From: a virus
DNA length: 22,443 nt
Virus record (IMG/VR): IMGVR_UViG_3300022187_000267
Location: 1 to 22,443 of that record
Direction: 5' to 3' (one strand)
Part shown: positions 1-14,602 of the stretch, piece by piece
Position numbering within the stretch: the first letter of the stretch is position 1
Layout of the letters: every line of letters starts with the position of its first letter
Notes under the pieces: model-generated
Told to the model about the DNA's origin: nothing
What the model saw: the letters and a program-made list of their open reading frames with translations, nothing else
The model's database searches: none
Translations under genes and position numbers: made by a program

Positions 1-129
1 GGCAGTATTGATACATACGAAATTCACACCGATAAAGATCATGCTAAAAATCGACTTGAGGAATTAAAGAAAGATGCAATTGAAGGAGTAGATCAATACT
101 GGATTAAAAAAACAATAGCATATAAATAA
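1..129 (+). CDS. C-terminal end of an unknown protein (partial)
   Basis: An open frame runs in from the window edge and stops with TAA at 127-129, giving the last 42 residues of a protein that starts outside the window. The piece is charged, with an acidic/basic helix-like stretch (KNRLEELKKDAIEG) and the tail YWIKKTIAYK. No domain is recognisable. Its last codons lie inside the first copy of the 19-bp repeat (109-127), and its TAA overlaps the next ATG as TAATG, so the downstream gene is probably translated by coupling. The function is unknown. Confidence 0.6.
   Translation, partial: GSIDTYEIHTDKDHAKNRLEELKKDAIEGVDQYWIKKTIAYK
109..127 (+). repeat. 19-bp direct repeat, copy 1
   Basis: The sequence AAAACAATAGCATATAAAT is identical to 349-367. 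This copy codes for the end of the upstream protein and ends just before the ATG at 129. The two copies are 240 bp apart and bracket one small gene exactly. It may be a shared translation-initiation or promoter element, or the scar of a duplicated or inserted gene cassette. Confidence 0.85.
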
Positions 130-350
130 TGGGGATTACGAAGTATAACCTAATCGAGAAATTGAGTTCCAATTCTACTATACCTGAACATTTAAGGGTA
201 GTAGTTAGACCTTTTAATCTAAGTGAGACTACTCTTATACCATTGACTAGGGTTGATAATAAAGAGTTTAAATCTACAGTAAAGAAGAAGGGTAGTTTTG
301 ATAAATTCAAACCGAAGATAAACATTAAGCAACAATACAAAAGACACTAA
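129..350 (+). CDS. Small basic protein of unknown function
   Basis: A 73-residue frame starts at an ATG whose A is the last base of the preceding TAA stop (TAATG). The product is strongly basic at its C-terminus, rich in lysine with few acidic residues. It has no membrane segment, no cysteine pairs and no recognised motif. A basic tail of this kind would suit nucleic-acid or protein binding, but that is only inference. The gene lies between two identical 19-bp repeats and is followed by another small gene at 366, so the three genes on this strand read as one operon running towards the end of the head-gene operon. Confidence 0.55.
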   Translation: MGITKYNLIEKLSSNSTIPEHLRVVVRPFNLSETTLIPLTRVDNKEFKSTVKKKGSFDKFKPKINIKQQYKRH

Positions 351-367: not shown

Positions 368-518
368 GAAATACCCAATCGGATTAACATTCACTCACAA
401 TAATAAGAATCATGAAATATTCAGATTCAATTCTGGTCGTTATCATGTTTGGTGTAGACAATGCCGAAAGTCATTTGTCTACACTGAGCAAGAACTAGAT
501 TCTATGATCAATCAATAA
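366..518 (+). CDS. 50-aa protein with a CxxC zinc-knuckle-like motif
   Basis: The frame ATGAAATACCCA... runs 50 codons to TAA at 516-518. The product has one CxxC pair (C30 and C33 in WCRQC) preceded by three histidines (H11, H16, H27). It could form a small zinc-binding fold if His and Cys share the metal, but one pair alone is weak evidence. The start follows the second 19-bp repeat. Its 3' end overlaps the end of the oppositely transcribed MuF-like gene by 11 bp, so the two operons converge without a spacer and without an obvious terminator. The function is unknown. Confidence 0.55.
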   Translation: MKYPIGLTFTHNNKNHEIFRFNSGRYHVWCRQCRKSFVYTEQELDSMINQ

Positions 519-1257
519 TAGGATCGTAACCACAAACACAGCGACAATTTATTATATTGCTCGCTGAACCCCTCGGGTCATTCGGATGCGCCAATCTTTC
601 GTCATTGACGATAAAATCTTCGTCCATACCCACAGGAGAAACACCTATATGACCTTGTCTTGTTGCATCGTCTGAAACAGGTATCCATTCTTTTCTAAAA
701 TCTAACCCAGATTCCCTCGCCCCTAATTCTTGAGCGTATGAACTTGCATTGCCTGTTTCGGTTCTGGCTATTGTCCTTGCTCTATGTGTTGATATAGTTC
801 CAGAAAATGAATCTCTAATATTCTTTGCAATCGGTTTTTCTCCTATTCCTTCTTGTATCCCATCCTCAATAATCTTTCCGACTATCTTTGCACTGGTTCC
901 AGTTATTAGATCAGACTGACTAAGAACATTCTCAGCGATCCATTCTTGCGACAACATAACAAAACGGCTCGACTCTGGAAATTCCTGTTTCTGCTTTTTC
1001 TGTTGTTTTCGGATCATTTGCTTTAACTGAGCAAGCCCCATAGTCCCGATAACTTTATCATAGAATTTTCGCATTAATTCCTGGACTTCTAAATCACTTT
1101 GATTAACCACACTAAGCGCGCCATCAATACCATTCATGAGATATTGACTAGCTATCTCGTCACCCTGCTTTTTATACAGTTTCTTAAATGATCGAAATAA
1201 GGATTTTTCGAACTGACTGCGTAATCTTACAAAGTAAGCAACATTTCTTCTATTCAT
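508..1257 (-). CDS. MuF-like head morphogenesis protein
   Basis: The 249-residue product carries the C-terminal signature of the phage Mu gpF family (SPP1 gp7-like minor head proteins): RTIARTETGNASS at 161-173, KEWIP at 189-193, R200/H203 and the closing NCRC at 237-240. Family members are minor capsid proteins made next to the portal; some are packaged into the head and ejected with the DNA. The gene follows the portal on the same strand, and its ATG overlaps the portal stop (GATGAATAG), which is the usual order terminase-portal-MuF. The first about 100 residues are basic and helical with a KQQKKQKQ stretch. No toxin domain is fused to the C-terminus, which ends 9 residues after NCRC. It is the last gene of this operon within the window. 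Confidence 0.9.
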   Translation of the reverse strand: MNRRNVAYFVRLRSQFEKSLFRSFKKLYKKQGDEIASQYLMNGIDGALSVVNQSDLEVQELMRKFYDKVIGTMGLAQLKQMIRKQQKKQKQEFPESSRFVMLSQEWIAENVLSQSDLITGTSAKIVGKIIEDGIQEGIGEKPIAKNIRDSFSGTISTHRARTIARTETGNASSYAQELGARESGLDFRKEWIPVSDDATRQGHIGVSPVGMDEDFIVNDERLAHPNDPRGSASNIINCRCVCGYDPIID

Positions 1258-2497
1258 CTAGTAAATTAAATTCCATGCCTTTAGGCACTTGACTAGATGG
1301 CATAAAAAACTCGCCCTCTGCTTCTTCTGGATAATTACCCTCTTGACGTGCTTCAATATCCGAAATAATACCCGCTTGAAAGTCGTTTCTAGCTGATTCA
1401 CGTTTTTCAAATACTCTCGGCTGTAATGCAAGAATATTATCTCTATCAATCATTGTATTAGATTGCTTTCCTGTTATTGATTCAAAGAAAATATCAAGAT
1501 CAGATAGAAACGCGCTCAACATCGGTATTACCGTATTGTCATAAAGACTCATACGAGCCTCAGACACGTTATTGAAAGTAGATCCTTCCGCGAGTCCTAA
1601 AAGGAATGGAGGATAACCAAGGGCAAGGGCAATTTCTCTAGCTGTGGTAGTCTTACTGTTCACCCAGTCCATTTCTTGTTGAGTCATGCCAGCCGATAAT
1701 ACAGAGTATTGCCAATTAAGCATTGCTATATTACTGCTTCTACCTTTACCCATAGCTATTTCCATATCCTTCCGGACTGCTTTCATTTGCTCGGGACTAG
1801 GTGGCTCTATAAAGTTATCTTTAGGCATATTCATGCCGAGAACCATAGAAGGTACACCGTTATTTTCAACAACCTTCTTATTGTATGCGCTCATTGCATT
1901 ACTCTGGTCTATGCTGATAATAGCAGATTGAAGCAATGACATTCCGAGCCATTCATTCTGAGGGTTAAATAATTTTGAGTGAAACATTTCAGATTTCAAC
2001 TCTTCATCAACTGGAAAAAGTTTAGTGCCTCCTTGTGTCCATCTATAGGCTATCAATTGTTCATTAAGACCGCCTCTCATGCCATACTCTAAATCAACTC
2101 TATCAGGTCGAATAGTCCTAAGCATTGAAATCTTTTTACCTACTGTTATTGCTTCAGCGTAGAAGTTGCCACCTAATAATTTATACTTCAACGCATCTTG
2201 AATGAAATTCGTATAGCCTTGTTTATAGTATGGCTTTCTTAGTAGTTCCTCTAATTCTGGTTGATCGAATACTAAAGGTATCTGACTTGCTGATTCTGCA
2301 ATGTCAGTTATGGCTCTAAATACAACATAGTTCTTTTCAAATCCATCACGTGAAGCAGTATTGTAATTTACTTTCCTGAATCCATCATCGCCTTGAAATA
2401 ATGAATCTGGATAGTTTAAAATTGGATCACCTGAAAACCCTTTTTGATTAAGGTCATCCTTGTTTCCCTTAGAGAAAAGCTTGTTTAGTCCTAACAT
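1250..2497 (-). CDS. Phage portal protein (HK97 family)
   Basis: This 415-residue protein is of normal length for HK97-type portals, which form the dodecameric ring at the head vertex through which DNA enters and leaves. Family-typical stretches are NYVVFRAITDIAESASQIPL at 56-75, the LLGGNFYAEAI segment near 107-117, and the NNVSEARMSLYDNTVIPML region near residue 310, where portals carry a conserved pattern before the C-terminal wing. It starts 2 bp after the terminase large subunit stop and overlaps the MuF-like gene, so all three are co-translated in packaging order. The assignment rests on motif pattern and gene order. Confidence 0.93.
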   Translation of the reverse strand: MLGLNKLFSKGNKDDLNQKGFSGDPILNYPDSLFQGDDGFRKVNYNTASRDGFEKNYVVFRAITDIAESASQIPLVFDQPELEELLRKPYYKQGYTNFIQDALKYKLLGGNFYAEAITVGKKISMLRTIRPDRVDLEYGMRGGLNEQLIAYRWTQGGTKLFPVDEELKSEMFHSKLFNPQNEWLGMSLLQSAIISIDQSNAMSAYNKKVVENNGVPSMVLGMNMPKDNFIEPPSPEQMKAVRKDMEIAMGKGRSSNIAMLNWQYSVLSAGMTQQEMDWVNSKTTTAREIALALGYPPFLLGLAEGSTFNNVSEARMSLYDNTVIPMLSAFLSDLDIFFESITGKQSNTMIDRDNILALQPRVFEKRESARNDFQAGIISDIEARQEGNYPEEAEGEFFMPSSQVPKGMEFNLLDE

Positions 2498-2499
2498 AA

Positions 2500-3921
2500 C
2501 TATAATACTTGAGGAGTAAAATTCCCTCTTCTTTTCATCCTATTAATATATTGAGTTGTCATATCCACTTGGTCGTCATGTTTGGCGTTTGGAAATAATG
2601 TCATTTCTTTTATGTAATCATCTAACCATTCCGCTTGAAATGGCAAGAATATTTTTCCATTCTCCCATTCTGGCTGTATCGCATAGGCTCTAGTTAATTT
2701 GTCAGTATCAACTTTTATGGGGCGAATCGGTATCAATGTTGATGATATTAATTCTTGGATTAATGATTGCCCGCTTGCCTTATCTTCAATTAAGCAATAG
2801 CGAGGTTTCCAATATTCGCACAATTGCTCGACCCTTGCTTTAAGGTCTGGAAACTCAACCTTTTCGCGTATGCTATTAAGTAGAAAATATCCTTTTTCAC
2901 ATTTACCCCATACCCCAATAGATGAATAATCGTTTTCCGCGCCTGTCTTAAACGCAGAGTCAATTGATATATCTATATGTTCAAACTCTGGCAGGTTTTT
3001 AGGGTCGTAATTCTGTATGAAATGTTTCTTAAATAATCCACCACCACGAGGCGCGGGTCGTTGTTGTAATTGTCCAGCCGTTGCATATGTGCCGAGTGTT
3101 TTCTCTAATTCCGCGACTTGTTTTTCTGGAAATCTCTCAGGAAACATTAATTCCCCTTCTTTGGTTCTTGGATCTTTCCACCCAATACAAGAAACAGAGG
3201 TTTTTCCTTTTTCCTCATAGCGCATAGGAATTTTCAAATGTTCGTAAGGCAATCCAAGTTCAAGTATTACCCCGCTAGTATCGGCTTCGTTCAATCTCTG
3301 CATGATTACAATGATTGCTGAATCCTCATTGTTTACACGTGATGGCAATGTTTCAGTAAATGTGATTCGAGCGTTTTCCAACTCTGCTTGACTGTTGGCA
3401 TTATCCGCGCTCAATGGATCGTCCAATATAACACGATCACCCCGAGAACCAGTCATGCCAGTGAATGACATCGCTTCTCTAAATCCTGTTTTACTGTTTT
3501 CAAATTTAGTTTTAGCGTTCTGGTCGCTCGTCAACTCAACCCCAAACATAGACTTATACCATTCTGACTGAATTAACCTTCTGCATTTCATATTGTCACG
3601 AACTGCAAGCGTCTGATTATGTGCGGTTCCAATGTATCTATATTCTTGTTCGCCCCTTGCCCATTCCCACGCTGGAAAAATTACGCCTGTTAGCAAACTT
3701 TTCATCGAGCCGGGCGGTACGTTCATCAAAAGCCGTTTTATTTGACCAGAATTTACCGCCTCAAGGTGTTCGCAAATTGCATCTAAACACCACCCCCATT
3801 TCAAAGGGGTGGATGGCTCTAATACGTGCCAAGCTTGCTGTGCGAACTCAGCTAATGACCTTTGACATAATTCAATATCAATAGCCTTGAAATCATCATG
3901 AGTCAGCTTCGATTCTTGCAT
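2500..3921 (-). CDS. terL: Terminase large subunit
   Basis: This is the ATP-driven DNA-packaging motor and nuclease, 473 residues. The N-terminal ATPase shows a Walker-A variant PPGSMKS (69-75), typical of the Terminase_6 group, and Walker B VILDDPL (164-170). The C-terminal RNase-H-like nuclease has its acidic residues at D321 (in ISIDSAF), E379/D380 (in LIEDKASG) and D449/D450 with D453 (in KHDDQVD). The family-typical segment YATAGQLQQRPAPRGGGLFK lies at 279-298. The start overlaps the small-subunit gene by 26 bp. All catalytic positions are present, so the enzyme looks intact. Confidence 0.97.
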   Translation of the reverse strand: MQESKLTHDDFKAIDIELCQRSLAEFAQQAWHVLEPSTPLKWGWCLDAICEHLEAVNSGQIKRLLMNVPPGSMKSLLTGVIFPAWEWARGEQEYRYIGTAHNQTLAVRDNMKCRRLIQSEWYKSMFGVELTSDQNAKTKFENSKTGFREAMSFTGMTGSRGDRVILDDPLSADNANSQAELENARITFTETLPSRVNNEDSAIIVIMQRLNEADTSGVILELGLPYEHLKIPMRYEEKGKTSVSCIGWKDPRTKEGELMFPERFPEKQVAELEKTLGTYATAGQLQQRPAPRGGGLFKKHFIQNYDPKNLPEFEHIDISIDSAFKTGAENDYSSIGVWGKCEKGYFLLNSIREKVEFPDLKARVEQLCEYWKPRYCLIEDKASGQSLIQELISSTLIPIRPIKVDTDKLTRAYAIQPEWENGKIFLPFQAEWLDDYIKEMTLFPNAKHDDQVDMTTQYINRMKRRGNFTPQVL

Positions 3922-4303
3922 CCTTTAAAGCTCTCAATTGTTCGGTTGTAAGCTTCTTTATGTCAATTGTCGGTTGCAATGTTCCGTCAGAGTTCGAAAC
4001 ATCAAGCTCGGTGCGTTCAACATATCCGCGCTTCTTGCCTTTGGTTTTCAAATAGAAAATAGTAGAGGTGGCATTCCCTTCATTGATTTGCTTGTGTAAG
4101 CTGGACTCGGCAAAGTCTAATGTTACATTGTCAATCTCCTGAACTGCCATTGCAAACTCGGGATCATTCTCTTTCCATTCATAAAAAGATGATCTTGCAA
4201 CCCCTGCTGTTTTACACGCGGTTGTGACGATCCCTAAAGATTTCTCAAGTGCCTCAAGTAGTCTCTGTTTTTTGATTTCTATTGCTTGGGTTGTAATTGG
4301 CAT
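3896..4303 (-). CDS. terS: Terminase small subunit
   Basis: The 135-residue product has an N-terminal helix-turn-helix of the phage small-terminase/resolvase type at about 23-47 (GIVTTACKTAGVARSSFYEW). A central helical segment contains GNATSTIFYLKTKGKKRGY (76-94), a pattern seen in many small terminases, where it helps the protein form a ring. Small subunits recognise the packaging site and regulate TerL. The gene lies directly upstream of and overlaps terL. Its start is coupled to the methyltransferase stop as TAATG. Confidence 0.9.
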   Translation of the reverse strand: MPITTQAIEIKKQRLLEALEKSLGIVTTACKTAGVARSSFYEWKENDPEFAMAVQEIDNVTLDFAESSLHKQINEGNATSTIFYLKTKGKKRGYVERTELDVSNSDGTLQPTIDIKKLTTEQLRALKDARIEADS

Positions 4304-5448
4304 TATGCGACTCCTGTTTCAAATACTTTTTCTGGATCAATGTCTTTTAATTTGCAATATCGGTTTACTATTACGTCACAATATTTTGGGTCTAGCTCCA
4401 TCATTCGGCATTTTCTTTTTGTTTGCTCACAAGCTATTAATGTAGAGCCTGAACCTCCAAAAAGGTCTAATACAATAACTCCATTTTTATTATATTTATC
4501 AAAACACCAAGAAGCTAACGAAATTGGTTTTTGTGTCGGATGAACACGCTTTTCGCCATGCTCAGAAGCTTTAATCATACCATGCCATTTATGTCGAAAA
4601 ATATTGACACGAACACCACCGCTAACAAATGCCAATTCGCCACCACTAAACGTATCACCTTCTCTCTCTTTGTCCCATATTAGCCACCCATTACCATTCG
4701 GAAGGCATGATGGATAATAATTTGCTCCCCAAAAAACTTTCAAAGAATCTGGAAACATTGAAGATATTAAATTAAAACAATTAATAGCAACCATTGTATC
4801 ATTATCGCCAAGTATATATCCGAAGTCCTCGCCAACTGTTACTCCATCAATACCTTTACCTGAATGTTTAATACCATACGGAGGATCAGTGAAAACCATA
4901 TCTGCAAGCTCACCACCCATTAGCCTTTGCACATCTTCCTCTTTGGTTGAGTCGCCACACATCAAACGATGTTCGCCTAGTTGGTATATTCGCCCTAATT
5001 CGGTTTTTGGTTCCTCTGGTGGCTCTCCGTCAAAATCATCCTCTTCAGCGTCTTGAATCTCTTCTTCGACTTCAAAAAAACTTAATTCATCCGATTCAAA
5101 CCCCCATTCGCCTAACGCTTCTTTATCAAAGTATTCGCGCAAAGCATCTTCATCAAAAGAGCCAGTGTTTTTATTCAAACGAATATTTAGCTCTTTTTCT
5201 CTTTCGAGAGTTAAGTCAAGCTCGACTGTGGGAACCTCTTCATAACCCATTTCAACAGCCACTTTTGTTCTCTGGTGACCGCCAATGATTATGTCTTTTC
5301 GATCCTCGTTTATGTTGACGATTACAGGGTCTACAAAACCGAATCTTTTAATGCTGTCTTTTATCGTTTGCTTCTGTGCATCCGACAATGATCTCGGGTT
5401 ATATTCCGCAGAAATTAAATCCTTTGGATTACGGTTAATAATTTTCAT
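4303..5448 (-). CDS. ParB-like nuclease domain / DNA methyltransferase fusion
   Basis: Residues 1-125 resemble the ParB/Srx N-terminal domain, with NPR at 17-19 and IIGGHQR at 54-60. An acidic linker (about 115-150) follows. Then comes an amino-methyltransferase with the catalytic DPPYG at 188-192 before the S-adenosylmethionine motif FGGSG at 330-334, the beta-class order. Such enzymes methylate the exocyclic amine of adenine or cytosine; the target cannot be read from sequence. This ParB-methylase fusion occurs in many phages and prophages, probably protecting DNA from host restriction or marking it for packaging. Here it sits directly upstream of terS, coupled to it by TAATG and to the RHH gene by the same overlap, which fits a link to packaging or regulation. 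Both domains look intact. Confidence 0.93.
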   Translation of the reverse strand: MKIINRNPKDLISAEYNPRSLSDAQKQTIKDSIKRFGFVDPVIVNINEDRKDIIIGGHQRTKVAVEMGYEEVPTVELDLTLEREKELNIRLNKNTGSFDEDALREYFDKEALGEWGFESDELSFFEVEEEIQDAEEDDFDGEPPEEPKTELGRIYQLGEHRLMCGDSTKEEDVQRLMGGELADMVFTDPPYGIKHSGKGIDGVTVGEDFGYILGDNDTMVAINCFNLISSMFPDSLKVFWGANYYPSCLPNGNGWLIWDKEREGDTFSGGELAFVSGGVRVNIFRHKWHGMIKASEHGEKRVHPTQKPISLASWCFDKYNKNGVIVLDLFGGSGSTLIACEQTKRKCRMMELDPKYCDVIVNRYCKLKDIDPEKVFETGVA

Positions 5449-5591
5449 TACTTTTCCGCTAAATAATCAATCGTTTTGCCAAGCGATTTTATTGAATATC
5501 GTCTTTTGAGTTTTTCAAGGGCTTCGATGGTTTCTGGTAAAAGCCTAACCGTTTTTGTTACTCGGACTAGGTGTGATGGTTTTCTGTTCAT
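5448..5591 (-). CDS. Ribbon-helix-helix (Arc/CopG-like) regulator, 47 aa
   Basis: A short frame from ATG (5591-5589) to TAA overlaps the methyltransferase start as TAATG. The product has the layout of an RHH DNA-binding protein: a basic N-terminus, a short alternating strand (VTKTVRLLP, 11-19), helix one (ETIEALEKLKRRY, 20-32) and helix two (SIKSLGKTIDYLAEK, 33-47). RHH proteins bind as dimers with the strands in the major groove and often repress their own operon. That fits here: the gene is first behind a promoter whose -35 box is overlapped by a perfect palindrome (5624-5636). It is probably an autoregulator of the methyltransferase/terminase operon. The fold is inferred by eye. Confidence 0.75.
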   Translation of the reverse strand: MNRKPSHLVRVTKTVRLLPETIEALEKLKRRYSIKSLGKTIDYLAEK

Positions 5592-5597
5592 GGTCTT

Positions 5598-5626
5598 AAT
5601 ATTTATTGCGTTACGGATAATGTCAA
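5598..5626 (-). promoter_or_regulatory. Promoter of the RHH-methyltransferase-terminase operon
   Basis: On the minus strand a perfect sigma-70 -35 hexamer TTGACA (5626-5621) is followed, after exactly 17 bp, by AATATT (5603-5598), which matches 4 of 6 positions of TATAAT. The expected transcription start, 7 bp further, falls on the A of the ATG at 5591, so the mRNA may be leaderless. The -35 box overlaps a palindrome (5624-5636). Confidence 0.55.
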
Positions 5627-6003
5627 GAAATTCTTGTTATTCGGGTAAATTTCCCTTGATCGGGTAAATTGAAAGTTTCTGTCTTGAATTTTTTATTTGA
5701 AGATTTTCCGTAGCAATGAGCGTATCTTTGCATTTTTGCGCGGTCGTCTTTGAAATCGACAAATTCACCTGTTTTTAATTTTTTGAAAGAAGCTGAAGAT
5801 TGTTTTTTGTTGTCGGTTCTGAGAATCCAGAAATTATCTGGATTTGATGTTTTTTGAATTATGAAATTTTTAGGGTCTTGGTCTACGATGAACAATCTAA
5901 TTTTTTTAGGTACTTGCCCTTCGCAAAAAATCAATTCTCCTGTTTTCATTTCCTCAATATCTGATTCTTGGATTGCCTTAAAATTTGTGTGTTTGATTTC
6001 CAT
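5623..6003 (-). CDS. Unknown 126-aa protein, first gene of the minus-strand block
   Basis: The product has no family I recognise. It seems to contain two loosely similar halves, each beginning with a KTGE motif (MKTGELIFCEG near residue 20 and LKTGEFVDFKDD near 76), followed by a beta-rich stretch and a lysine-rich end. It is basic overall, with no signal peptide and no membrane segment. A duplicated small beta domain that binds nucleic acid would be one reading, but nothing proves it. The start at 6003 lies about 5 bp behind a promoter-like element. The gene faces the repeat-rich divergent region, a position often held by a phage control gene. Its stop overlaps the palindrome of the next promoter. 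Confidence 0.7.
   Translation of the reverse strand: MEIKHTNFKAIQESDIEEMKTGELIFCEGQVPKKIRLFIVDQDPKNFIIQKTSNPDNFWILRTDNKKQSSASFKKLKTGEFVDFKDDRAKMQRYAHCYGKSSNKKFKTETFNLPDQGKFTRITRIS
5624..5636. promoter_or_regulatory. Palindromic operator candidate
   Basis: CAAGAA-A-TTCTTG is a perfect 6+1+6 palindrome sharing three bases with the -35 hexamer of the RHH gene promoter. A protein bound here would block RNA polymerase. The RHH protein encoded just downstream is the obvious candidate ligand; that is inference from position. Confidence 0.5.
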
Positions 6004-6008
6004 ATAGA

Positions 6009-6038
6009 CAAAGATACATCAATATTGATTAAGTTCAA
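6009..6038 (-). promoter_or_regulatory. Promoter of the gene at 5623-6003
   Basis: On the minus strand TTGAAC begins at 6038 and is followed after 16 bp by TATCTT, which fits sigma-70 moderately. The same bases also fit the Bacteroidota consensus, with TTG, 19 bp, then TATCTTTG matching TAnnTTTG. In either reading the transcription start falls within a few bases of the ATG at 6003, again predicting a leaderless or almost leaderless mRNA. Confidence 0.45.
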
Positions 6039-6067
6039 TATTAAATACAATTATTTATATTTATGAA

Positions 6068-6410
6068 CCGTTTGCAACCGTTTGCAAATTTGCAAACCTA
6101 TAAACAATTGAGCAATAGCAAGTTGCAAATTCCGTTTGCACAGTGCAAACAACTTTTGCAACCATGCAACTTTTTGATTATCAATGATTTATCCCCTCTA
6201 ATAATAATAAATATTTAAAATAATAATAATAATAATATAGAGGGATAAAGTATATAATATTAAATACATTCTTTTATATTAACTTATACTTTATAGTTCT
6301 ATTCTCAGGATTTTTGCAAACGTGCAAACGAGGCAAAAAATATTTATAAGTATTTGATTTATAAAAAGTTACATGGTTGCAAACGGTTTGCAAATTTGCA
6401 AACGAATCAT
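6068..6410. repeat. TTTGCAAA site cluster in the divergent intergenic region (origin or control-region candidate)
   Basis: About 340 bp between two divergent genes hold 13 sites with a TGCAA core, most of them (T)TTGCAA(A): near 6071, 6081, 6089, 6123, 6134, 6143, 6154, 6164, 6313, 6323, 6377, 6387 and 6395. Three are paired into perfect palindromes: GTTTGCAAATTTGCAAAC at 6080-6097 and again at 6386-6403, and GTTTGCACAGTGCAAAC at 6134-6150. The outer two lie close to the two divergent genes. Between the clusters lies a pure A/T tract. Dense palindromic sites round an A/T-rich core are what a replication origin with initiator-binding sites, or an operator array, looks like. Apart from the candidate genes and promoter listed, nothing else is seen here. 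Confidence 0.8.
6188..6249. repeat. Inverted repeat around a pure A/T core
   Basis: TTTATCCCCTCTA (6188-6200) and TAGAGGGATAAA (6238-6249) are complementary apart from one extra C. They enclose 37 bp made only of A and T, largely repeats of AAT. The structure could extrude as a hairpin or cruciform, or act as a DNA-unwinding element flanked by binding sites. It lies in the middle of the TTTGCAAA site cluster. Confidence 0.7.
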
Positions 6411-6639
6411 AAAAAATGCAAATAATTTAAAAAGTGCTTGCGTTTTGATAGATAAAGATAATATATTATTCTTATCACTAAAACAGAAACCGATTGCAAA
6501 AAACATCATGGAAATAACAATAAAAAAATGCGAAAAAACAAATAAAGTAAGATTTTATAGTAAAAAAAATCAAATATATCCTATTAAAATATCTGGAAAT
6601 ATAGCGCAATTTCAATGCGGATCAGTAATTTTATTCTAA
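6373..6639 (+). CDS. Unknown small protein facing the control region
   Basis: An 88-residue frame. The ATG at 6373 lies inside the right-hand TTTGCAAA cluster, so the first about 13 codons are made of operator-like repeats and the true start may be later. No strong in-frame ATG with a ribosome binding site is present before residue about 50, so the start is uncertain. The rest (from about residue 20) looks like a compact beta-rich basic domain, with strands such as ACVLIDKDNILFLSL and NKVRFYSKK, without known motifs. A terminator-like hairpin follows it at 6663-6691, suggesting a short separate transcript. It could be a regulator acting on the neighbouring sites, but that is only positional inference. 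Confidence 0.5.
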   Translation: MVANGLQICKRIIKNANNLKSACVLIDKDNILFLSLKQKPIAKNIMEITIKKCEKTNKVRFYSKKNQIYPIKISGNIAQFQCGSVILF

Positions 6640-9135: not shown

Positions 9136-9701
9136 AATTTGCAGAAACCATAAAAACTAAAAGCGATCAACTAAACGCAGATGATTTCATCGGGAAAGAT
9201 GCGCTAATCATCACTATTACAAAGGTTGATTGTAAAGATAGTCAAGACCAGCCAGTTGCGATACACTACGAAGGGGATAACGGCAAACCATATAAGCCAT
9301 GTCTAAGCATGAGAAAATTGATCGCTCATGCTTGGGGTGTAGATGAATCAAAATTCATAGGGCGATCGTTATCACTCTATAGGGATGCTAGTGTCAAATG
9401 GGCTGGCGAGAATGTAGGAGGAATTAGAATTAATGCAATGTCAGATATTGACTCTAAATTAAGAATTGCCTTACAAGAAAGCAAAATGAAGCGAAAGATT
9501 ATTGAGGTTGAAAAACTAGAACCTCAAGTAGACGCAAAAAGAATTAAAGCTGAAAAGTTCGTTGAATCTGTTTTGTCAGGAGAAAAAGAAGCGGATGAGA
9601 AAGCAGTCGCATATTTAGAGAAAGATTATCCCGATTTGCTAGAGAAATTAAACACTGCAAAGCAAGAAGAAGAACCCGAAGAAGAATGGGAGGGTGTATA
9701 A
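9132..9701 (+). CDS. Exonuclease-partner protein, probable DNA-binding/recombination factor
   Basis: The 189-residue product belongs to a group often found directly beside YqaJ-type exonucleases in phages, recognised here by MKFAETIKTKSDQLNADDFI at the N-terminus and the block HYEGDNGKPYKPCLSMRKLI (about 45-64), followed by FIGRSLSLYRD (about 76-86) and VGGIRINAMSDID. I know no settled function. The beta-rich N-terminal domain of about 125 residues could be an OB-like single-strand-binding fold, with a charged helical tail (about 130-189) ending in the acidic EEEPEEEWEGV. Acidic tails are typical of SSB-like proteins that recruit partners. No RecT, Erf or Red-beta annealase is seen nearby, so this protein is the leading candidate for that role; that step is inference. 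Confidence 0.75.
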   Translation: MKFAETIKTKSDQLNADDFIGKDALIITITKVDCKDSQDQPVAIHYEGDNGKPYKPCLSMRKLIAHAWGVDESKFIGRSLSLYRDASVKWAGENVGGIRINAMSDIDSKLRIALQESKMKRKIIEVEKLEPQVDAKRIKAEKFVESVLSGEKEADEKAVAYLEKDYPDLLEKLNTAKQEEEPEEEWEGV

Positions 9702-9913
9702 TGTCTAGACCTTGTTTTATGGATAGGGATACTGTAAGGACACCGAAAACGTTTACAGTATCAAAAATTAATCAACAAAAATTGAAAACTGTTAGTTTTA
9801 TTTTAGGACAATCAGAATCAGAAACTATAAACCAACTCATAGAAAACCATGCCAGAGACATCCGAACAAGAAATACAGAATCAGATAATATTAGCACTAA
9901 GTCAGGGCAATAG
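9701..9913 (+). CDS. Ribbon-helix-helix-like small DNA-binding protein
   Basis: The start at 9701 is preferred over an in-frame ATG at 9686 because it overlaps the preceding TAA as TAATG, the joining style used throughout this genome. The 70-residue product has a strand-like KTFTVSK (16-22), helix QQKLKTVSFILG (25-36), a turn and helix SESETINQLIENHARDI (38-54), the RHH order, with a disordered polar tail. It probably binds DNA as a dimer and may regulate this operon or help recombination. Its last 65 bp overlap the start of the VRR-NUC gene in another frame, so the tail is dual-coding and could be dispensable. Confidence 0.6.
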   Translation: MSRPCFMDRDTVRTPKTFTVSKINQQKLKTVSFILGQSESETINQLIENHARDIRTRNTESDNISTKSGQ

Positions 9914-10196: not shown

Positions 10197-10323
10197 AAAA
10201 GAAAAATACGTAGTAGCAATGGTTGAACCTCATTTGATTAAAGCATCAAATGATGTTGAAATTGATTTCGAAGTCATAAAATACGAGATAAAAACTATAT
10301 TAGAACAATTAACCAATGATTGA
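10183..10323 (+). CDS. 46-aa acidic protein before the primase
   Basis: The start was chosen by the AAAGGAGG site 9 bp upstream. The product (MQLSEKEKYVVAMVEPH...) is helical and acidic and ends LEQLTND. No family is recognised. It overlaps the VRR-NUC gene by 14 bp and the primase-helicase start by 8 bp, so it is translated together with both and may be an accessory factor of the replication proteins. That is inferred only from position. Confidence 0.6.
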   Translation: MQLSEKEKYVVAMVEPHLIKASNDVEIDFEVIKYEIKTILEQLTND

Positions 10324-12901
10324 TTTCGATAAAATAAATCAAGTGGCTCTAGCAAATCTAGAGTCACTTTGCTGTGAGTATTTAACAGGTAAGCGCAACG
10401 GTAGAAATTTTGTTGCGTTAAATCCGACTAGGGCAGATGGGAGTTTGGGAAGCTTTCAAATATCATTAGATAAAGGAAACTGGATTGACTTTGCGAATGG
10501 TGACAAAGGAGGCGACCCGATAGCATTAATGGCTTACATATGGGGATGCTCGCAAGGTGATTCCGCAAAGAAATTAAGCACTCGTTTAAATGCTGGTGGT
10601 CTTGATAAGGTTGCGGAAGTTATGACAGGCGGTTTCAATTCCTCAGGCTCTTCAGATTGGGAACCGTTGCCGTTTGCTGATACTGTAGACGCTCCGTATT
10701 TTGATCATAAGGCATGGGGTAAACCTACATTAAAAACTCATTATAAAGACGAGCAGGGGCGAACTGTTGGATATGTTGCCCGATATGAACACGCAGAAGG
10801 CAAAGACACAATACCGATTACATATTGCAAGAACAAGAAAACAGGATTGTGCGCGTGGAAATGGAAAGGATTTGCAAAGCCAAGACCGCTATTGAATCTT
10901 GATAAAATCACATCTGCGAAAGACAACACGCCTATATTAATAGTTGAAGGCGAAAAGTGCGCAGAGATAGCACAGGCGAAACTAAGTATTATTGTAACCT
11001 GTTGGGCGGGTGGAACGAATGCTATTGACTATGTAAACTTTGAACCGTTGTTGCGTCATAAGGTATTTATTATGCCTGACAATGACGAAACAGGGATTAA
11101 ATGCGCTAACAATATAAAAAAGAAATTACCTAATGCAGAGATTGTTTTTCCAGATGCGAGCAAACCCAAAGGATACGACATTGCGGATTATATCCAGAAT
11201 GAAAACTGGACTGAAAAAGAAATTAAGGAATTTATTAAAACTCGTAAGGAGAGAGAACCAATTGAAGAACCAGAAATTATTGGACCGATTCCTACTAAAT
11301 CCGCGCCAAGCGAAGAAGTTAGAGCAGAAACGATTGAAACGAATACTGAAACATCTAAAGAAGAATCAGAGCCGTTCATAATTCTAGGCAAAGACTCGGA
11401 TAAAAACTATTGCTACTACTCGAAAAATGACAGACAAATCCATGTTTGGAGCGCGACCAATCACACAAAGAACAATTTCATTCAATTAGCGTCTTGGGAT
11501 TATTGGGAAGATAGATTTGAAGGTAATACAACCGCAATATCTAATTTTCTGATTCGCAAATGCCAACAAAAAGGAATCTTTGAAGCTGAGAGAATAAGGG
11601 GGCGCGGTGCATGGTTAGATAATGGACGCAATGTATATCATTCAGGTGGTTATCTAGTAGTTGATGGTGTAAAGTGTGATTTGTCATTGAAAAATAGTGA
11701 ATATATATACGAGTCAAGATCAATGCTAGAGCACGAAACTTGCGAACCTCTAAAGGTTGAGGAATCAAGGAAACTTGCGGATATATGCGAAAAACTGAAT
11801 TTTACGAATTACCTAGATAATTTCCTACTTGCTGGATTTATTGCGGTAGCTCCTATATGTGGGGTAATGCCTTGGAGATCTCATATATGGGTAACAGGTT
11901 CAAGCGGGTCAGGTAAAACATGGATAACTGATAATTTAGTTCATCGAATGATTTCAAAAACTGCATTAATGGTTCAGGGAAATACGACCGAAGCGGGGAT
12001 TAGACAAGCCTTACAATCAGATGCAAGACCAGTATTGATAGACGAGGCAGAATCACAAGACCAAGCGGGAATGAAACGGATGCAGAATATTATGGAATTA
12101 GCGCGTCAATCAAGCAGCCCTGAAGGTGGCAAAATTATCAAAGGAAGTGCAAGCGGTTCAAGTATTACATTCGACATTAGAAGTTCGTTTTACTTTTCAT
12201 CAATTGGAGTAAGCGCGCGATATAAAGCGGATCTTTCGCGAATTAGCATACTACACTTGAAGAAAAATACATCTATTACCGCATCTGAGGACTTCGAGGA
12301 ATTAGAGCAAATGTATAAAGAAACCTTTGCGATGGATGATATGGCTAACGGCTTGAGGGCTAGATCGTTTAAGATGGCTCCAATAATTGCAAAAAATGCA
12401 AAGATATTGAGCGAAGCTACTAGAATGATTCTAGGTTCGCGCGGTGGCGATCAGATAGGCGCATTGCTCGCGGGGTATTACAGTTTGATTTCGGATGATG
12501 TGTTGACATTGGAACGTGCTCAGATTTGGGTAAATAGCCATGATTGGGAAGTGTATAAAGAAGATGATAAAGACTTAGACGAGCAACAAGCCTATAGTGT
12601 ATTGATGGAGTCTATAATCAGACATGAAACAGATGATGGAACCCGCAATTTAAGCATAGGCGAATTGATAGAATATGGCACTACTTCAGCCGATGCAACG
12701 CTTGCAAGGCATGGGATTCGAGTAAAAGACAAATGGGTATATATCGCAAATAGTCATGTTGAATTGAAGAAAATTTACAAAGACACGCAATTTTCCGACA
12801 AATGGAAAGATCAATTTTTGAGATTAGAAAACGCAGAAAGTGTTGCGGGATATAAATTTGCAGGTGTGACAAGTAGGTGTGTAAGAATACCAATTAAATA
12901 A
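10316..12901 (+). CDS. TOPRIM primase / DUF927-like helicase fusion
   Basis: This 861-residue replication protein has three parts. Residues about 15-85 resemble the N-terminal region of CHC2/TOPRIM-type phage primases (GSLGSFQISLDKGNWIDFAN, then GGDPIALMAYI), but without a clear zinc-binding cysteine set. Residues about 205-275 form a TOPRIM domain with ILIVEGEK (glutamate near 211) and MPDNDETG (253-260, aspartates 255 and 257). After an acidic linker rich in E and T (about 310-350), the C-terminal half is a DUF927-like P-loop ATPase with Walker A GSSGSGKT (528-535) and Walker B VLIDEAES (573-580). It probably primes and unwinds phage DNA, and both catalytic sites look intact. No DNA polymerase is present in the window. 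Confidence 0.9.
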   Translation: MIDFDKINQVALANLESLCCEYLTGKRNGRNFVALNPTRADGSLGSFQISLDKGNWIDFANGDKGGDPIALMAYIWGCSQGDSAKKLSTRLNAGGLDKVAEVMTGGFNSSGSSDWEPLPFADTVDAPYFDHKAWGKPTLKTHYKDEQGRTVGYVARYEHAEGKDTIPITYCKNKKTGLCAWKWKGFAKPRPLLNLDKITSAKDNTPILIVEGEKCAEIAQAKLSIIVTCWAGGTNAIDYVNFEPLLRHKVFIMPDNDETGIKCANNIKKKLPNAEIVFPDASKPKGYDIADYIQNENWTEKEIKEFIKTRKEREPIEEPEIIGPIPTKSAPSEEVRAETIETNTETSKEESEPFIILGKDSDKNYCYYSKNDRQIHVWSATNHTKNNFIQLASWDYWEDRFEGNTTAISNFLIRKCQQKGIFEAERIRGRGAWLDNGRNVYHSGGYLVVDGVKCDLSLKNSEYIYESRSMLEHETCEPLKVEESRKLADICEKLNFTNYLDNFLLAGFIAVAPICGVMPWRSHIWVTGSSGSGKTWITDNLVHRMISKTALMVQGNTTEAGIRQALQSDARPVLIDEAESQDQAGMKRMQNIMELARQSSSPEGGKIIKGSASGSSITFDIRSSFYFSSIGVSARYKADLSRISILHLKKNTSITASEDFEELEQMYKETFAMDDMANGLRARSFKMAPIIAKNAKILSEATRMILGSRGGDQIGALLAGYYSLISDDVLTLERAQIWVNSHDWEVYKEDDKDLDEQQAYSVLMESIIRHETDDGTRNLSIGELIEYGTTSADATLARHGIRVKDKWVYIANSHVELKKIYKDTQFSDKWKDQFLRLENAESVAGYKFAGVTSRCVRIPIK

Positions 12902-13617: not shown

Positions 13618-14180
13618 TGAAAACTAAAACATACGATTTCAAAGAAGCACTAGACCTGTATATCGAGACAGGTTATAAACCGATACCTACAGTAGAAGGG
13701 AAAGTATTATGGTTTCATGCAAGAGATAAAACAATGCTTTGTGAGAGACAAGGTATAAACTATCACCAAACAGAAATAGAAGTCCCAATCCCAGAGGGAC
13801 GCAACCCAGACGAGTTAACCATTGCCCACTTGCAGATGGGTGAGGATGGAGAGCAATGCCGAGTCACTGAAGAGGGCGAACCTTTACCCGATGATGCTGA
13901 GTTTTGGGTCAGGGTAGACAAGAGATGGCAACCGACCGAAACGCGATGGGCAGAGATGACGATACGCACCCGTAAGCCGAAGGGGTGGTTTAACTCAGAT
14001 AACAAGGAATCCTTGACTACTGATAAACCCGACTTGGCTCAGGAGTTTGAGGAAATGGCTTATGATCCTAATAATATAAATAAAGACTTAATTATGAAAC
14101 TACACCAACGACTCACAGAAGTAGAGAAACTGTGTGAGGAGATGTATAGAGAGTTGGAGAAGTTGAGAAAGGACTTATAA
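13617..14180 (+). CDS. Unknown 187-aa protein with a C-terminal coiled coil
   Basis: The start at 13617 is chosen because TAATG overlaps the previous stop and GGGAGG lies just upstream; an in-frame ATG at 13605 precedes that site. The N-terminal half (about 1-125) looks globular, with a VLWFHARDKTMLCERQ strand region and an acidic patch (EEGEPLPDDAEFW). A linker leads to a heptad-like helix (about 155-187, LHQRLTEVEKLCEEMYRELE) that probably oligomerises. No known family. It is coupled by TAATG to the DnaA-like gene behind it, which makes a joint role in replication possible but unproven. Confidence 0.75.
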   Translation: MKTKTYDFKEALDLYIETGYKPIPTVEGKVLWFHARDKTMLCERQGINYHQTEIEVPIPEGRNPDELTIAHLQMGEDGEQCRVTEEGEPLPDDAEFWVRVDKRWQPTETRWAEMTIRTRKPKGWFNSDNKESLTTDKPDLAQEFEEMAYDPNNINKDLIMKLHQRLTEVEKLCEEMYRELEKLRKDL

Positions 14181-14602
14181 TGAAAGCAGTATTTGATACA
14201 GTAGAAGAGATAACTGGGTTCACCCAAGACGATCTAGCCTCAGATAGAAGAGGCAAACGCATATCAACAGTGAGACAAATCACAGCTTATATACTATACA
14301 ACTCGTATGACCATAAGATTGATGAACTTTGCATAGCACTAAATAGACAAAGAAATACAGTCTATTACATGATCTCTCAAGTCGAGAAATATGATGAATG
14401 CACACCTGAATGCGACCTATACGTAAGAATATTAGATGCGTGTCCAGAACGATCAGAACGATCAGACCAGAATTGCCATGATTTACTTGATGAGGCTGTA
14501 GCTATTATGTGTGAGTTTCGATCTAAAAGACTATTTACCAGAGAAGCTAGAGATATTAAAACTAAAATGGAAAAATGGATAAAGAAAGTAAGAATACAAT
14601 AG
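14180..14602 (+). CDS. DnaA domain-IV-like DNA-binding protein (no ATPase)
   Basis: Residues about 8-70 follow the C-terminal DNA-binding domain of DnaA: VEEITGFTQDDLASDRRGKR resembles the start of domain IV, STVRQITAYILYNS (29-42) its long RQ-containing helix, and LNRQRNTVYYMISQVEK (54-70) the recognition-helix region, where DnaA normally has a DHST/DHTT motif. Here RNT replaces it, so box specificity may differ. The AAA+ domain that binds ATP in DnaA is absent. After the domain comes an insertion coded by a 9-bp tandem repeat (PERSERSDQN, near 89-98) and a helical tail. It may bind the phage origin or hijack host initiation, or act as a repressor. The start is coupled by TAATG to the upstream gene. 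Confidence 0.75.
   Translation: MKAVFDTVEEITGFTQDDLASDRRGKRISTVRQITAYILYNSYDHKIDELCIALNRQRNTVYYMISQVEKYDECTPECDLYVRILDACPERSERSDQNCHDLLDEAVAIMCEFRSKRLFTREARDIKTKMEKWIKKVRIQ
14446..14463 (+). repeat. Two tandem copies of a 9-bp unit
   Basis: AGAACGATC is repeated twice head to tail inside the DnaA-like gene, in frame, giving the doubled ERS of PERSERSDQN. It sits in the presumed linker after the DNA-binding domain and probably arose by slippage without disturbing the fold. Confidence 0.6.

Follow-up and report, generated by a model that had tools for sequence, protein, structure and literature searches.

What is a non-coding stretch of about 340 bp, crowded with copies of one short word, doing between two phage gene blocks that point away from each other: does replication start here, are the two blocks switched from here, or both? 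The stretch lies in IMG/VR virus record IMGVR_UViG_3300022187_000267, whose 22,443 bases are called the window below and are probably a fragment, contig L004 running on past their left end. An earlier, sequence-only reading had proposed a phage origin or a master switch, which is the right pair of alternatives and one that sequence cannot settle. Our own analysis indicates that the region, an element of a familiar general type, is probably where phage replication starts and/or genes are switched. Its features and the surrounding genes are collected in Table 1.

Table 1. Coordinates of the array, its parts and the genes discussed in the text (window positions).
Feature	Position	Strand	Remarks
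Whole array with A/T core, conserved non-coding unit	6067-6405	none	339 bp aligned to L007, 79% identical, no gaps
Left arm, 8 TGCA sites	6070-6175		sites at 6073, 6083, 6091, 6124, 6137, 6144, 6157, 6165
Right arm, 5 TGCA sites	6312-6403		sites at 6315, 6323, 6378, 6389, 6397; includes palindrome copy 2
18-bp perfect palindrome GTTTGCAAATTTGCAAAC, copy 1	6080-6097
18-bp perfect palindrome GTTTGCAAATTTGCAAAC, copy 2	6386-6403
17-bp palindrome GTTTGCACAGTGCAAAC	6134-6150
Pure A/T run of 41 bp, candidate DNA-unwinding element	6199-6239		longest A/T run of the window
Inverted flanks (TTTATCCCCTCTA / TAGAGGGATAAAG) around the A/T run	6187-6251		flanking word TTTAYCCC
Possible left promoter, TTG-19-TATCTTTG	6007-6038	minus	ends 5 bases short of the gene 5623 start codon (ATG); pattern match only
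Conserved block TGCTTGCGTTTTGATAG..GATAATATATTA, possible right-operon promoter	6435-6468	plus	about 80% identical in L007
Leftward block	508-6003	minus	head morphogenesis, portal, large and small terminase, ParB-domain DNA methyltransferase, 47-aa protein, unknown 126-aa protein
Rightward block	about 6.7-17.7 kb	plus	YqaJ-type exonuclease, VRR-NUC protein, primase-helicase, orphan DnaA domain IV protein, helicase
47-aa ribbon-helix-helix (RHH)-like protein, best candidate array binder	5448-5591	minus	AlphaFold2 model, gene linkage
Second RHH-like protein, alternative binder	9698-9913	plus	right operon; AlphaFold2 pLDDT 71; weak matches to MatP, CopG, ParG
Primase-helicase, possible initiator	10316-12901	plus	right operon; PHROG 35358 DNA primase, 2.8e-127
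Orphan DnaA domain IV protein, alternative binder	14180-14602	plus	Pfam Bac_DnaA_C, 32.2 bits (cut-off 31.5)

Paired TGCA sites form a dense, palindromic array

Between 6073 and 6397 we counted 13 TGCA sites, matching the 13 TGCAA-core sites in about 340 bp of the sequence-only reading, and one more follows at 6417. Most stand in pairs 7 or 8 bp apart (6083/6091, 6137/6144, 6157/6165, 6315/6323 and 6389/6397) that fit GTTTGCA-N3/4-TGCAAAC exactly or closely; those at 6073, 6124 and 6378 are single. Both copies of the 18-bp palindrome and the 17-bp palindrome were confirmed where they had been reported, and the 18-bp word has no other exact copy in the record. As palindromic binding sites automatically do, these palindromes fold well, whether as RNA or as DNA (z about -3); no Rfam match to a known structured RNA was obtained for the region up to E = 1, and no intrinsic terminators were found in this part of the window.

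TTGCA and TGCAA together occur 22 times in the roughly 340 bp of the array, within 6061-6410; stretches elsewhere in the window average 1.3 and reach at most 7, so the density is indeed unmatched. In 2000 dinucleotide-preserving shuffles of the region itself the count averaged 3.0 and did not exceed 11, shuffles of the rest of the window gave at most 7 per 350 bp, and 10 of the 12 GTTTGCA/TGCAAAC words in the window fall within the array. The motif is thus not equally common elsewhere, as the sequence-only reading had asked, and is concentrated at a single place in the contig; the other numbers of that reading also proved right or nearly right on recount. An open reading frame at 6373, which it had taken for a flanking gene and possible binder, did not hold up: it starts inside the array, the corresponding frame of L007 is closed by a stop after 15 codons, and this comparison suggests that it is probably spurious.

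The array is kept in place while its neighbors diverge

Among the relatives, L007 alone (about 77% DNA identity) has the complete array, and L008 has half of it, namely the left arm plus the core's edge. The gapless 79% identity between array and L007 compares with 43% in the leader to its left, 61% in the RHH-like gene and 70% in gene 5623; the right-hand genes, at 44%, are unrelated. Within the array, identity is 87% in the TGCA bases, 66% in the arm spacers and 84% in the core, with 95% over 6160-6219 and 85-95% over 6120-6175. Ten of the 13 TGCA sites occupy exactly the same place in L007 and two are shifted by one base; the retention of 10 has p = 1e-5 against spacer identity and 1e-3 against whole-arm identity. 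In L008 the left arm and core edge are conserved too, and the 17-bp palindrome persists in both relatives with a changed middle. Conservation of the motif, a second of the three tests put forward for it, was thus found in one relative, L007. The array is identical, with zero differences, across the near-identical contigs L004, L005, L034 and L035, of which L004 spans its left half only.

Searching a phage database with the array-region DNA returned chance-level matches only. Bacterial genomes contain relatives of the large terminase (TerL) with no more than 55% identity, most of them in Alphaproteobacteria, and all that a scan of these loci for TTGCA density picked out was coding sequence in L112. 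A literature search for the motif retrieved only papers unrelated to phage control regions.

Several other differences came to light among these contigs. The small gene at 129-350 is missing from L004, which is otherwise 99.9% identical (window 128-348 against L004:5869-5995); this is an insertion/deletion variant within the population. The ParB-domain methyltransferase (window 4303-5448 against L007:1491-2678) is 78-96% identical at both ends and 13-24% in the middle, about alignment columns 181-360, which from the alignment looks like a swap of the catalytic or recognition part. L008:1-760 is without gene 5623 and the methyltransferase, and joins a different N-terminal part of the small terminase (TerS) to the same C-terminal tail. 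Finally, a 353-kb virus contig carries, at L071:2826-3060, about three repeats of a unit some 90 bp long, in which a TGGCA/TGCCA frame encloses GTTTGCANNNTGCAAAC-like sites.

Sites on both arms share one face of the helix

With a helical period of 10.5 bp, the 13 sites give R = 0.69 (p = 9e-4 against uniform positions, a value that ignores the dependence between paired sites). R rises to 0.90 if each pair is represented by its first site only, a selection made post hoc, and the right arm is in phase with the left across a gap of about 150 bp. The sites of L007 over the same stretch give R = 0.68, their spacing being inherited and hence not an independent sample. In the unrelated TTTGCA arrays of L063, L066, L069 and L075, R is 0.12-0.28 and there is no phasing; phasing is therefore a property of this array and not of the word. 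Given the site density, the conservation in place and the shared helical face, we read the region from its sequence as a conserved protein-binding array.

An A/T-rich core lies between the arms

The sites had been described as framing a pure A/T core. An A/T run is indeed present; the pure stretch is 41 bp long, however, and the remainder of the gap of about 140-150 bp between the arms is merely A/T-rich. Over 50, 100 and 150 bp alike, no DNA in the window is less stable than this core (z 4.7 at 100 bp). Its inverted flanks retain their pairing in L007, in part by G-U type pairs. Since the folding energy of flanks and core is ordinary (z about -1.2), we set aside a core hairpin as a structure.

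As in bacterial oriC with its DnaA box and DnaA-trio, the core carries TAA repeats after a TTATCCCC word, and the oriC of Bacillus subtilis requires DnaA boxes plus 3'-GAT-5' trios (PMC6669920). Unlike in oriC, TTATCCCC is not a DnaA box, nor is it constant, becoming TTACCCCC in L008, and we rejected a DnaA-trio reading of the core. A search for DnaA boxes (TTATCCACA or close) found no exact TTWTNCACA between 5900 and 6700, which sets the region apart from a DnaA-dependent oriC.

Outside the arms, the 33-bp block at 6435-6468 is kept in L007 despite unrelated genes on its far side, and this conservation makes it a possible promoter of the right operon. On the left, a TAnnTTTG similar to that of the candidate promoter can be read from the sequence ahead of the L007 gene.

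A 47-residue RHH-like protein is the best candidate binder

The protein that we consider the best candidate, encoded at 5448-5591, was absent from the candidates listed in the sequence-only reading. It matched no family by sequence in any library searched, and no further relatives were found in IMG/VR or in the loci fetched. Its AlphaFold2 model (pLDDT 74, two helices) has structural matches almost exclusively to RHH proteins (NikR, CopG bound to DNA, Arc, MazE and MatP) and to the RHH-like TCP domains of plants, all of them weak (best Foldseek E 0.28, best Z 4.8). Common to all three sequences are 25 of the 47 residues, among them the invariant V9, R10, T12, K13, T14 and R16; in the model, R10, T12, K13, T14 and R16 would fall in the putative DNA-contacting strand. 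What singles the protein out is L008, where its gene directly adjoins the array although gene 5623 and the ParB-domain methyltransferase are missing and TerS is different. Two binders proposed earlier, the gene 5623 product and a ParB-domain protein, which is this methyltransferase, can thus be dismissed as required binders, both being absent from L008 while the half of the array that it covers is retained. That the RHH-like protein binds the array strikes us as evenly balanced.

Another earlier proposal, a DnaA-like binder encoded at 14180, fared better in part. The protein is a true homologue of DnaA domain IV, without an AAA+ domain. The box-contact motif of DnaA is RDHTTV; at its position the phage protein has RQRNTV, so that the box-contact residues are changed, and the region has no exact box for it to read. 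We found no relatives in 50,697 phage records, and in IMG/VR only the near-identical contig. The L007 and L008 fragments end before this gene and before the second RHH-like gene. Both of these proteins, and the primase-helicase as well, compete with the 47-aa protein as candidate binders.

Replication origin, gene switch, or both

We favor a replication origin doubling as control region for the divergent operons, a reading that we hold at about an even chance; taken by themselves, origin activity is something of a toss-up and control of the promoters is fairly likely. A small dimeric DNA-binding protein of the phage, most likely the RHH-like product of 5448-5591, would bind the TGCA-centered sites cooperatively. 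The bound dimers would all lie on one side of the helix in both arms, so that the arms could be wrapped or looped together, straining and opening the A/T core, and the primase-helicase of the rightward operon would be loaded at the opened core. The same complex would set the activity of the promoters on either side. In its most specific form, in which the 47-aa protein itself builds the initiator complex, its one-face dimers on both arms looping the DNA and opening the core for the primase-helicase, so that a mini-protein both starts replication and sets divergent transcription, the proposal is a long shot.

Counting toward an origin are the low stability of the core, the strictly maintained spacing and the gene content of the rightward operon, which includes a primase-helicase, a helicase and an exonuclease. 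In addition, TTTGCA arrays of two other lineages (L066:8950-9090; L069:6600-6860 and L075:9170-9420) lie directly downstream of DnaB-like or Toprim-helicase genes, the helicase gene having been read in L066 (DnaB-like, 6.7e-26) and L075 (Toprim plus AAA_25) and the lineages having been found by TTTGCA words only; judging by these positions, such arrays may be origins. Cumulative GC skew, suggested earlier as a test, does have its minimum at about 6 kb, but this is also the point at which the gene strand switches. Third-position skew, taken in the coding direction, is 0.107 in the left block, 0.077 in the right and -0.007 in the far-right one; four-fold skew is -0.060, 0.028 and 0.153. The two disagree, so the skew supports neither reading and the test is uninformative.

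The strongest challenge to an origin is that the array is an operator and nothing else, at which the RHH-like or another phage regulator binds cooperatively to switch between the rightward replication operon and the leftward packaging and structural operon, the A/T core serving as divergent promoters or as a loop while replication begins elsewhere. We regard this as a real possibility, if short of even. Conserved sites and core are predicted by origin and operator alike, and would also be expected if divergent promoters lay in the core. The position between divergent operons and the palindromic paired sites suit an operator, the phasing suits DNA looping, and L073 has TTTGCA sites adjoining an HTH repressor-like gene; transcription regulation is, in addition, the usual role of RHH proteins, the studied examples RelB, Arc, CopG and AmrZ being transcription regulators (PMC3325190, PMC2812701). 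Yet the two best promoter candidates (6007-6038 and 6435-6468) lie outside the core and are not covered by sites, the region has no excess of sigma-70-like matches over shuffled sequence, and an operator does not by itself explain a core of lowest stability or the strict gapless spacing.

Other binders would give the array other meanings. An origin read by the orphan DnaA domain IV protein, its recognition helix altered for TTTGCA and the RHH gene a neighbor by chance, overlaps with our preferred explanation as a variant that differs in the binder. The homology of that protein speaks for it, as do TTTTGCAAA at 6312 and GTTTGCACA at 6134, each one mismatch from the loose box TTWTNCACA; since the array sites are dyads, whereas DnaA boxes are not palindromic, and the contact residues differ, we judge it unlikely. 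RHH centromere-binding proteins such as ParG and omega bind arrays of short repeats, with A/T-rich spacers in TP228, and repress promoters (PMC5016525), but a centromere-like partition site bound in this way by the RHH-like protein seems very improbable, as no partition NTPase was present among the proteins scanned from this fragmentary record and no integrase or plasmid genes were recognized in the fragment. Least credible of all is a packaging (pac) site bound by the small terminase: the array does lie upstream of the terS-terL genes, but not inside terS, and L008 combines the same array arm with a different TerS N-terminal region. On account of this difference in TerS, we rejected the pac reading.

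Relation to known systems

Our preferred reading finds its closest parallels in iteron-type origins of plasmids and phages, which likewise have a cluster of repeated short sites, here far above chance, helical phasing, adjacent least-stable A/T-rich DNA and replication genes nearby. The array, known from sequence, differs in having palindromic sites on both sides of the A/T core, no exact DnaA box and no recognized initiator family: the proteins scanned included no member of a known one, the linked genes encoding the primase-helicase and the orphan DnaA domain IV protein.

Operator arrays of RHH proteins (CopG, MetJ, Arc and RelB) resemble the region in that a very small RHH-like protein is encoded nearby and that short symmetric sites stand in close pairs on one helix face. 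CopG half-sites contain TGCA, and a pair spacing of 8 bp is MetJ-like. It is not that of RelB, whose dimers bind one helix face at hexads (PMC2812701), and these operators are far smaller than an array of 13 sites over 330 bp. Many repeats and A/T-rich spacers are shared with RHH partition centromeres (ParG parH of TP228, omega parS of pSM19035), whose binders also regulate promoters (PMC5016525); these differ from the phage fragment, in which no partition NTPase was found.

It is rare for the replication origin or master switch of an uncultured phage to be identified. The element described here is compact and conserved, has a candidate binder and yields clear predictions, which opens the question to tests with synthetic DNA; the part of it that concerns binding needs no host in hand. 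To our knowledge, no RHH protein is known as a replication initiator; if it is true that one acts in initiation here, this would be an unusual use of the fold.
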